Source: Sulfurospirillum sp. SCADC (GTDB lineage: Bacteria > Campylobacterota > Campylobacteria > Campylobacterales > Sulfurospirillaceae). Taken from it: DNA of 64,000 nucleotides. Numbering within the stretch: the stretch's first letter is position 1; each line of letters starts with the position of its first letter. The DNA is taken from assembly GCF_000743525.1 (NCBI RefSeq), contig NZ_JQGK01000001.1, forward strand, positions 62,001 through 126,000. The letters are read 5' to 3'. A program made the position numbers and the translations under genes. The notes beneath the pieces are model-generated. The model was not told the origin of the DNA, made no database searches, and saw nothing but the letters and a program-made list of their open reading frames with translations. Positions 60,833 to 63,263 of this stretch are shown here, piece after piece.

Positions 60833-61273
60833 TTACAAGCTGCTCGCTTTAAGCATCTTGTAAATCGTAGGCGTACTTGCAAGATCAATCGCTTTAAAAT
60901 CATCCAAATTGCTGATGGACGCATCGGCGTGAAAATCCAATAAAAGCCGTGTCATCGCCTCTTTTCCTGAACTCGCACAGTACATCAACGCCGTTACGCC
61001 ATTGTCATTTTGACTGTTGAGTTCAATGCCAGCTTTCACCAAAAGCTCCACACAGGTAAAATCCCCACCAAAACAGGCGTTCAAAATCGCCGTATTGCCA
61101 TCGATGTTTCTAAGCTCCAGATCAACCCCTACTTCGATGAGTTCCGTAGTCACAGCCGCATTGCCTTCGCGCACCGCTTTCATCAAAGCTGAGTTGCCGT
61201 GCTTTCCCACGCGGTTCAAATCATTGGTATCATACCCATTGGAAGAGAGCCAAAGCAAAGTTTGCTCACTCAT
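60833..61273 (-). CDS. Ankyrin-repeat protein
   Basis: A 146-residue protein made of about four ankyrin repeats: GNSALMKAVREGNAAVTTEL, GNTAILNACFGGDFTCVELL, GVTALMYCASSGKEAMTRLL, with typical linker asparagine and aspartate residues. No signal peptide, so it is probably cytoplasmic and binds a protein partner. Its ATG overlaps the final TGA of the peroxidase-like pseudogene (ATGA), so it was probably translated by coupling to that gene. With the upstream reading frame now broken, its expression may be reduced. Confidence 0.85.
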   Translation of the reverse strand: MSEQTLLWLSSNGYDTNDLNRVGKHGNSALMKAVREGNAAVTTELIEVGVDLELRNIDGNTAILNACFGGDFTCVELLVKAGIELNSQNDNGVTALMYCASSGKEAMTRLLLDFHADASISNLDDFKAIDLASTPTIYKMLKASSL

Positions 61274-61767
61274 GCGCCCATCCAGTTCTCGTGCGCATGC
61301 CCTTTTTTCTTAAAATGGATCGCTTCATCAAGCTTCGTCTCAAACATCTCTAGATCAAACGCATCTTCCACATCGCTCGTGATCTCTTTGTAGACAAATT
61401 GTCCATCTTTATTGATGATAAAGATGGATTTTGCACAAAGTGTTTCATCGACGTAAACACCAAATTTCTTAGCAAATTCTTCAAAATCAACTGAAGTACA
61501 GGAAGGATTGGTTGCTTGATCTAACGGCTATGGGCTGATAAAGTAGATAAACACTTGTTCATGGTATTTTTGGATAATCTCTAACAGTGAGGAGCTTAGC
61601 GAATCGTGATACGGCAAAGTGATCATCACCTGCACCTTGGTTGCCAACATACCGATGACTTTGCTTTCACCATCTTGCATCACAAGACTGATAGCAGGCG
61701 CTTCAGAGCCCATTTTTCGCTCATTTTTAAGTAAGGGTTTACGGACACCTTTAACGATTGTTTCCAA
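61270..61767 (-). pseudogene. Thiol peroxidase (Tpx)-like gene interrupted by an in-frame TAG
   Basis: The frame from TTG 61767 reads KMGSEAPAISLVMQDGESKV, VQVMITLPYHDSLSSSLLEI and FIYFISP, then TAG at 61528-61530. It continues in the same frame (PLDQATNPSCTSVDFEEFAK, then KFGVYVDETLCAKSIFIINK, then DGQFVYKEIT) to TGA 61270-61272. The whole is 165 codons, the normal Tpx length. The peroxidatic cysteine expected after LPYHDS is missing, although a cysteine remains at the resolving position. The start lacks a ribosome-binding site. I call it a pseudogene of an already divergent Tpx-like protein; a sequencing error is the main alternative. Confidence 0.7.
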
Positions 61768-61822
61768 GAAGTCTAATGTTTAAGGAGTTTATGCAAAAGC
61801 CATACCATGCGTCACAAAAGTG

Positions 61823-61832
61823 TTACATGTAA
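61823..61832. repeat. Iterated palindrome between fumC and the Tpx-like pseudogene
   Basis: TTACATGTAA in the 104-base gap upstream of the pseudogene and downstream of fumC, both on the minus strand. No clear promoter or terminator is seen in the rest of the gap. Confidence 0.85.
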
Positions 61833-61871: not shown

Positions 61872-63263
61872 TTACGCTTTGGGGTGAATCATCTCTGAGG
61901 GAATCACATAACGATCAAACTCTTCAGACGTGAGAAGGGAGAGTTTGATGCACGCTTCTTTGAGGCTGAGATGCTCTTTGTGCGCGAGCTTTGCCACTTT
62001 CGCTGCGTTTTCGTACCCAATGTACGGATTGAGTGCGGTGACCAGCATCAACGAATTTTGAAGGTTTGACGCGATCTTCTCACTGTTCGCTTCGATGCCT
62101 TCCACGCAGTGAATGCGAAACGACTCCATCACATCTGCAAGAAGTCTGACTTGTTGCAAGAAATTGAGGATGATGACGGGTTTAAAGACGTTGAGCTCAA
62201 AGTTACCTTGACTTGCACCAAAGGCAATCGCCGTATCGGCACCAAACACTTGGCACGCAACCATCGTGACCGCTTCGGCTTGCGTTGGATTCACTTTGCC
62301 TGGCATGATGGAGCTTCCTGGTTCATTTTCAGGAATGTTCAGCTCGCCAATACCACACCTTGGACCCGAAGCGAGCCACCTGATGTCATTGGCGATTTTC
62401 ATCAAATTTGCGGCTAATCCTTTGTTTGCCCCACTCGCAAAGACAAGCGCGTCGTGCGAGGTTAAAGCGTGAAATTTATTGGGAGAAGAGACAAAGGTTT
62501 TGCCTGTGAGTTTGCTCAGCTCAACGCTTACAAATTCGCTGAGTTTGGGATGCGCGTTGATGCCCGTTCCCACAGCCGTTCCACCGATGGCAAGCTCACG
62601 CAAGGATTGAAGCGCTAAGAGAATGTGTGAAGAAGAGTGCTCCAACATACTGCGATACCCGCTAAACTCTTGCCCAAGCGTAAGGGGCGTTGCGTCTTGA
62701 AGGTGGGTACGACCGATTTTAATGATGCCACCAAACTCTTTTTCTTTGATTTCAAGTGTCTCTTTGAGCTTTTCTAATGAGGGAAGCAGTTGCTCTTCGA
62801 TCTCAATGACGCTAGCGATGTGCATCGCTGTTGGAAACGTGTCGTTCGAGCTTTGAGACATATTGACATGATCATTAGGGTGAATCAGTTTCTCTTTTCT
62901 AAAATCGCCTCCGAGTATTTCTGTAGCGCGGTTGGCGATGACTTCGTTCAGATTCATATTGGTCTGAGTGCCACTACCCGTTTGCCAGATGGCGAGGGGA
63001 AATTCGCCATCAAACTTACCCGCAAGGATTTCATCGCACGCTTGAATGATCGCTCCTGCTTTGGTAGCATCGAGTTTGTTTAACTTTTGGTTGACCGTGG
63101 CTAAAGAGCGTTTTAAAAGTGCAAAAGCACGAATAAGCTCTTTGGGCATCTTCTCAGTACCGATCTTAAAATTCTCCAAACTACGCTCAGTCTGTGCTCC
63201 CCAATAACGCTCATTGGGAACGTTGATCTCACCCATCGTGTCTTTTTCGATTCTATAATCCAT
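61872..63263 (-). CDS. fumC: Fumarate hydratase class II
   Basis: Iron-independent fumarase of 463 residues that interconverts fumarate and malate. Key blocks: [34 protein letters not shown] near residue 96, [20 protein letters not shown] near 127, the active-site [18 protein letters not shown] near 180, and the superfamily signature [13 protein letters not shown] near 315. AAGGAG precedes the start. It completes a set of central carbon genes with acnB and ppsA, though not in one operon. Beyond its start the base composition drops to AT-rich. Confidence 0.96.

Follow-up and report, generated by a model that had tools for sequence, protein, structure and literature searches.

The window, the whole 64,000-nucleotide stretch that was analysed, corresponds to bases 62001-126000 of contig C1 of a 2.66 Mb Sulfurospirillum genome (38 contigs, 99.99% complete). 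It carries a broken gene derived from thiol peroxidase (Tpx), an intact ankyrin-repeat gene and a gene resembling fumC, all on the same strand (Table 1). The preliminary description had recognised a frame of 165 codons and Tpx length with a single TAG, without giving its strand. The frame lies on the minus strand and the TAG is its codon 80; several stops interrupt the plus-strand frame across the same bases (61270-61767). With the stop written as X, the window protein matches an intact orthologue at 92% identity over 165 of 165 residues (E 5.8e-101), so the frame is not a chance ORF.

Table 1 Features of the broken gene and its neighbourhood, in window positions.
Feature	Position	Strand	Detail or basis
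Ankyrin-repeat gene, intact, 146 aa, partner	60833..61273	minus	Start overlaps the stop of the broken gene (ATGA)
Broken gene, Tpx-derived, HENWM-tailed, lacking the peroxidatic Cys	61270..61767	minus	TTG 61767-61765, 165 codons, TGA 61272-61270
Tail codons GHAHENWMGA, C-terminal family signature, behind the TAG	61273..61302	minus	Translation and tail comparison
In-frame TAG, codon 80	61528..61530	minus	Sense codon (A, Q or T) in 10/10 intact orthologues
Codon 59, a Ser in the column of the Tpx peroxidatic Cys	61591..61593	minus	Alignment
Leader, 23 bases instead of 29, lacking a Shine-Dalgarno sequence	61768..61790	minus	Comparison with intact orthologues; TTG start at 61765-61767
Sigma54-type -24/-12 promoter-like site, TGGTAT-N5-TTGCA (GG-N10-GC)	61792..61807	minus	Conserved in 9/10 intact orthologues
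Fumarate hydratase-like gene (fumC), upstream	61872..63263	minus	Putative, named by recognition

TAG is an ordinary stop in the window, since it closes 7 of the 48 long ORFs there. Selenocysteine and a genome-wide recoding of TAG were both rejected on this ground; selenocysteine had been dismissed earlier too, rightly, although the point has no bearing on the case. Behind the TAG follows a GTG-started frame of 33 codons that carries the tail and is a mechanical ORF only.

The gene was searched for in 24 Sulfurospirillum genomes (the window genome and 23 others) and found in 11 of them. Apart from the window copy, these are ten intact orthologues of 74-92% identity, which contain no internal stop at codon 80 or elsewhere. 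The preliminary description proposed comparing this codon in orthologues, which might all have ended there; 0 of the 10 does. No single ancestral residue is claimed for codon 80, since the orthologues vary there. The remaining 13 genomes gave much weaker matches (<80 bits), and those read are Tpx proteins with the peroxidatic Cys, which lies within VPSLDT[PA]VC in the Sulfurospirillum paralogues read.

A second lesion, unseen in the preliminary description, affects the leader. AAGGAG is found at -11 in all ten intact orthologues and is missing from the window copy, where the distance between the promoter-like site and the start is 6 nt shorter than in the orthologues. The TAG and the loss of the Shine-Dalgarno sequence each occur in 0/10 intact orthologues, which marks the window copy as a pseudogene. 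A hairpin sequestering the Shine-Dalgarno sequence in the orthologues (ACTCCTT...AAGGAGT) was considered and discarded, because most of the left arm would lie upstream of a transcript that begins some 12 bases past the -12 GC.

The upstream site has the GG-N10-GC spacing of the sigma54 consensus. The window copy has it at -39, and nine of the ten intact orthologues have it at -45 (L006 lacks it). Within the window, an exact match is expected 0.04 times and was found once. When one mismatch is allowed, 2 matches are found against 1.98 expected, so conservation, not rarity, carries the argument for a promoter. The nifH gene of the window genome, examined by eye, also has the GG-N10-GC spacing upstream. 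A NifA-type TGT-N10-ACA element was not found within 250 bases upstream in any of 12 loci examined.

The absence of the peroxidatic Cys, already noted in the preliminary description, was confirmed. Its place is taken by Ser59 in the window protein and by S, P, P, H, M, D, K, K, K and E in the ten intact orthologues. Because all ten lack this Cys and are open at codon 80, the loss of the cysteine is old and the stop is private to the window copy. Pairwise dN/dS values of 0.08-0.20, obtained for nine rows that include the window and leave out G014 and G016 (proteins identical to that of G023), indicate that the intact orthologues are under purifying selection. The earlier proposal that the function had changed before the gene was broken is thus well supported. 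Cys111 is retained in the window copy and in all ten orthologues, and Cys90 in the window copy and five of the ten. A thiol function other than that of Tpx, exerted through the invariant Cys111, is therefore conceivable. The C-terminal stretch EAIHFKKKGHVHENWMGA has a single variable place among eight aligned rows.

The tail of the window copy has changed as well: Val158, invariant in the ten intact orthologues, is Ala. At the nine codons changed only in the window, where L003-L006 agree, 6 changes are synonymous and 3 nonsynonymous, against a selection-free expectation of 79% nonsynonymous among non-stop single-base changes (P = 0.004). This count is restricted to codons identical in the four orthologues and leans towards conserved codons; codon 80 is excluded, since the four differ there. 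Most of the window branch thus appears to have been under constraint, which suggests that the lesions are young and the decay of the window copy is probably recent. An earlier polarisation with L003 as sister (8 synonymous and 6 nonsynonymous changes assigned to the window, 10 and 1 to L003) was replaced, because the tree places the window outside L003-L005.

The ankyrin gene starts inside the stop of the broken gene, and AAGGAG is absent from the bases printed before its start. This arrangement suggests that its translation is coupled to that of the broken gene, in which case both lesions probably lower the output of the ankyrin protein. Close ankyrin copies (76-100% identity; weaker matches elsewhere, at 24-35%, are left out of the count) were found in 8 of the 24 Sulfurospirillum genomes, all eight directly behind the HENWM gene, as we call the gene with this tail. 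Across 19 regions read from other genomes, an ankyrin-type gene lies directly behind the HENWM gene in ten (L075, L079, L080, L081, L084, L085, L087, L088, L092 and L093); it is missing from that place in three Sulfurospirillum regions (L076-L078) and six others. Ankyrin genes were named by searches in four Sulfurospirillum regions, L084 and L092, and by eye in the rest. The fumC-like gene is the upstream neighbour in 7/7 Sulfurospirillum orthologue regions read (by eye).

A scan of 398 genomes from the order for the tail pattern HENWM or DENWM gave 57 places in 54 genomes; 50 of these places are C-terminal tails of Tpx-like proteins, one being a fragment only (L063), and the other seven are chance matches (L059, L062, L074, L122, L130, L131 and L134). 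Three S. diekertiae-like genomes escape the pattern, their tail reading HETWM. In a profile comparison, the family and Tpx align over 149 columns with a hhalign probability of 99.1% (E 5.8e-19), indicating common descent with Tpx (NF001808; Redoxin, PF08534). As judged from these comparisons, the proteins are a distinct, Tpx-derived family ending in GHxHENWM.

Major differences from Tpx can be observed. In addition to the GHxHENWM tail, both the peroxidatic (TxxC) and the resolving Cys are missing in the Sulfurospirillum rows; where the latter would stand (RFC in Tpx, ahead of the EGI segment), the nine aligned rows have an 8-column gap. The orthologue L004 scores 27.5 bits against a curated cut-off of 123 for NF001808 and 18.8 against 26.6 for PF08534. 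The best NCBIfam match is the thiol peroxidase Prx-SUH (NF045827), with 34.4 bits for L004 and 38.3 for the window protein with X. These scores are far below the cut-off of 298 bits, and the best stretch covers residues 95-142 only. A curated model for the family was not found in Pfam and NCBIfam as searched, the best matches being under their cut-offs. Modelling of the intact orthologues with AlphaFold, from four rows, gave a poor structure (mean pLDDT 54.7). The order of its strands and helices fits the thioredoxin fold, and peroxiredoxins or other proteins of that fold make up most of the top Foldseek matches in the PDB, with TMq of 0.27-0.42 among the matches listed, a consistent but weak result. 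The gene is unnamed in the titles and abstract starts of the open-licence PMC matches listed, and the family may still have been published; the words 'peroxidase' and 'ankyrin' occur 0 times in the portions consulted of PMC4794192, PMC4674564 and PMC12029903.

Fifty rows of the family were placed in a tree that leaves out L063, the chance matches and the near-copies L010 and L011. By motif, 22 rows have the peroxidatic Cys and 28 lack it, the match in L132 (DEPC) being doubtful. All but one of the 28 form one clade (95/89) drawn from families f1, f6, f9, f17 and f21; L058 stands apart from it, with a long branch of its own. L013 is a meeting point of long branches, and the position of the root is insecure. 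Read in this way, the tree shows that one branch lost the peroxidatic Cys, either ahead of the divergence of the order's families or with a later spread between families.

The proteins that keep the Cys (e.g. L060, L064, L066) share the tail and the fold family with the window gene, from which they differ in retaining SLKTEVC and in being unbroken. In the alignment they have no Cys at the resolving place of Tpx; a Cys is present four positions later in several (e.g. L067, L071) and near the C-terminus in many. Their context includes nif genes in L090, the region of L060, and ankyrin and SagB-like neighbours in L092. A further relative is a 129-aa protein encoded beside NifN (L084:4725-5111, L085:4708-5082, L087:4899-5276, L088:3711-4097), whose L084 copy has no Pfam or NCBIfam match. 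It also lacks the peroxidatic Cys and, unlike the HENWM family, has no tail. On the strength of profile homology (99.5%, E 1.9e-22), the nif cluster holds in it another degenerate relative of the peroxiredoxins.

The family is linked to nitrogen fixation. Calling nifH by TIGR01287 (E up to 1e-60) in the 398 genomes, we found it in 89, of which 86 are over the curated cut-off. It is present in 47 of the 50 tail-bearing genomes vs 42 of the 348 others (Fisher p 2e-32, uncorrected for kinship). The set of 50 results from reading all places; earlier tables took 54 and 52. The tail-bearing genomes without a nifH match are G005 (78% complete), G053 and G130. Within Sulfurospirillum, 10/11 carriers of the gene and 9/13 non-carriers have nifH (p 0.33, not significant), and the nine latter genomes indicate that the gene is not needed for nitrogen fixation.

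In other families of the order the HENWM gene lies in or near nif clusters, which is not so by position in Sulfurospirillum, where 135-170 kb separate it from nifH in the seven genomes in which both genes are on one contig (the window genome G000, and G007, G011, G014, G016, G019 and G023). The order in L084 is NifE, NifN, the 129-aa relative, the HENWM gene, ankyrin, a SagB-like protein, NifX, a NifX-associated protein, flavodoxin and a NifW-like protein. NifN, NifX, the NifX-associated protein and flavodoxin score over their cut-offs; NifE is just under and NifW under. Two regions agree in part with L084: L088 has NifN and the NifX-associated protein over the cut-off and NifX just under, and L090 has NifX over and NifA under. 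As a separate observation, a gene for a SagB-family dehydrogenase or nitroreductase recurs in the nif regions, beside the ankyrin or HENWM gene (L084:2521-3771, L088:5054-6295, L090:3146-4405, L092:4693-5916).

The window genome itself has open frames for the Mo-nitrogenase proteins NifH, NifD and NifE, with NifK and NifN assigned by position and weak matches. Its Fe-only nitrogenase, by contrast, is wrecked. An anfD remnant at C1:13210-13877 (L114, L137) encodes residues 1-81 and 77-221 in two frames, or 221 of 535 residues. The same genes precede it as precede anfD in G007, and it is followed by a GntR-like gene and transporter genes (named by eye) where G007 has the remainder of its cluster. 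Nothing in the 19 kb read of the window genome matches that remainder, apart from a weak hit on the AnfD remnant. The four AnfD-profile matches of the genome are the two anfD fragments, NifD and NifE. In other genomes, NifE-like matches to this profile contain one inner stop (G011:C2:121482-122759, G023:C1:1184297-1185553, G016:C1:1039207-1040463, G008:C1:1106656-1107939), which is probably an overhang of the profile past the real stop.

An iron-iron nitrogenase has been reported in S. multivorans and two S. cavolei strains in the part of PMC4794192 consulted. Over the cut-off, AnfD was found in 7 of the 24 genomes (G002, G007, G014, G016, G019, G021 and G023). In G005 it lies in two pieces under the cut-off on one contig (749 and 266 bits), and this genome was counted as positive. 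The intact pair of HENWM and ankyrin genes is present in G005, G007, G009, G014, G016, G019 and G023. AnfD thus accompanies six of the seven intact pairs, G005 included, vs 2 of the 16 genomes without the pair (p 0.0017). The link is confounded by relatedness, and p rises to 0.011 once the near-copies G014, G016 and G023 are merged. For any intact gene, with or without ankyrin, the figures are 6/10 vs 2/13 of the genomes lacking the gene (p 0.04). The exceptions are G009, with the pair and no AnfD, and G002 and G021, with AnfD and no HENWM gene.

We propose, with a probability of roughly 60%, that the window carries a copy, disabled not long ago, of a gene for a protein associated with nitrogen fixation, and that this protein was a helper of nitrogenase which could eventually be spared; the biochemical role is inferred. 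The gene would be expressed from the putative sigma54 promoter when nitrogen fixation switches on. Its product would be a non-catalytic thioredoxin-fold protein whose His-rich tail may bind a metal, a cofactor or a partner, and which, together with the ankyrin protein, could assist or protect nitrogenase. In the window lineage the need for it may have relaxed after the Fe-only nitrogenase cluster was lost. A more tentative extension, which we regard as possible but somewhat unlikely, is that the HENWM-tailed pseudo-peroxiredoxins make up a class of nitrogenase helpers in Campylobacterota that has gone unrecognised. They would act as non-catalytic carriers or shields through the His-Glu-Trp tail and the ankyrin partner, in Sulfurospirillum above all for the Fe-only nitrogenase, and the window copy would be dying after the loss of that enzyme.

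Nitrogenase needs many helpers, and several conserved genes of nif clusters have no known role. A family with the peroxiredoxin fold, no catalytic Cys and an odd tail, adjoining NifE-NifN, is a clear candidate for such a helper. The window genome amounts to a natural experiment, as it combines Mo-nitrogenase genes that look functional with the remains of an Fe-only nitrogenase and a putative helper that is dead.

It is possible, though we do not consider it probable, that the pseudogene is nif-associated and its loss unrelated to the Fe-only nitrogenase, a gene of small effect having simply drifted. Thirteen of the 24 Sulfurospirillum genomes do without the gene, nine of them with nifH, and G009 keeps both gene and ankyrin partner without AnfD. 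However, the sole broken copy is found in the very genome whose AnfD is frameshifted and less than half its length, and AnfD accompanies the intact pair in six of seven genomes, in one of them in two pieces.

That the gene still works, either by read-through of the TAG or by a restart behind it that yields a tail peptide, appears improbable. In its favour, neither the promoter-like site nor the ankyrin partner is damaged, a TAG before C may be leaky, and the GTG-started frame behind it would supply the tail. Against this stand a TTG start deprived of its Shine-Dalgarno sequence, the normal use of TAG as a stop in the window and the mechanical nature of the 33-codon frame.

The TAG could be an error of sequencing or assembly in a gene that works, for which a single substitution would suffice, the frame being otherwise uninterrupted and largely constrained. 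This explanation is nevertheless quite improbable: an independent second lesion removes the Shine-Dalgarno sequence kept in all ten intact orthologues, the invariant V158 of the tail is changed as well, and the assembly is 99.99% complete in 38 contigs. An ordinary thiol peroxidase, broken and covered by paralogues, is highly improbable, since despite the Tpx ancestry, the retained Cys111 and two other Tpx-like matches in the genome (C2:177279 and C10:25548), the intact orthologues conserve the tail instead of the peroxidatic Cys and the nif linkage would be unexpected for a housekeeping Tpx.

Apart from the gene, the palindrome TTACATGTAA occurs in 34 copies in the window vs 0.08 expected, both within and between genes (e.g. 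at 61823 and 63358). The whole genome contains 1309 copies, vs 1 for the reversed control. This repetition in Sulfurospirillum is unreported in the titles and abstract starts of the open-licence PMC matches. All 24 Sulfurospirillum genomes have the palindrome, in 49 to 1496 copies (controls, 0 to 10), and twelve loci of 5-9 kb from other genera have 0 or 1 copy each. It looks like a highly iterated palindrome of the HIP1 kind or an uptake sequence.
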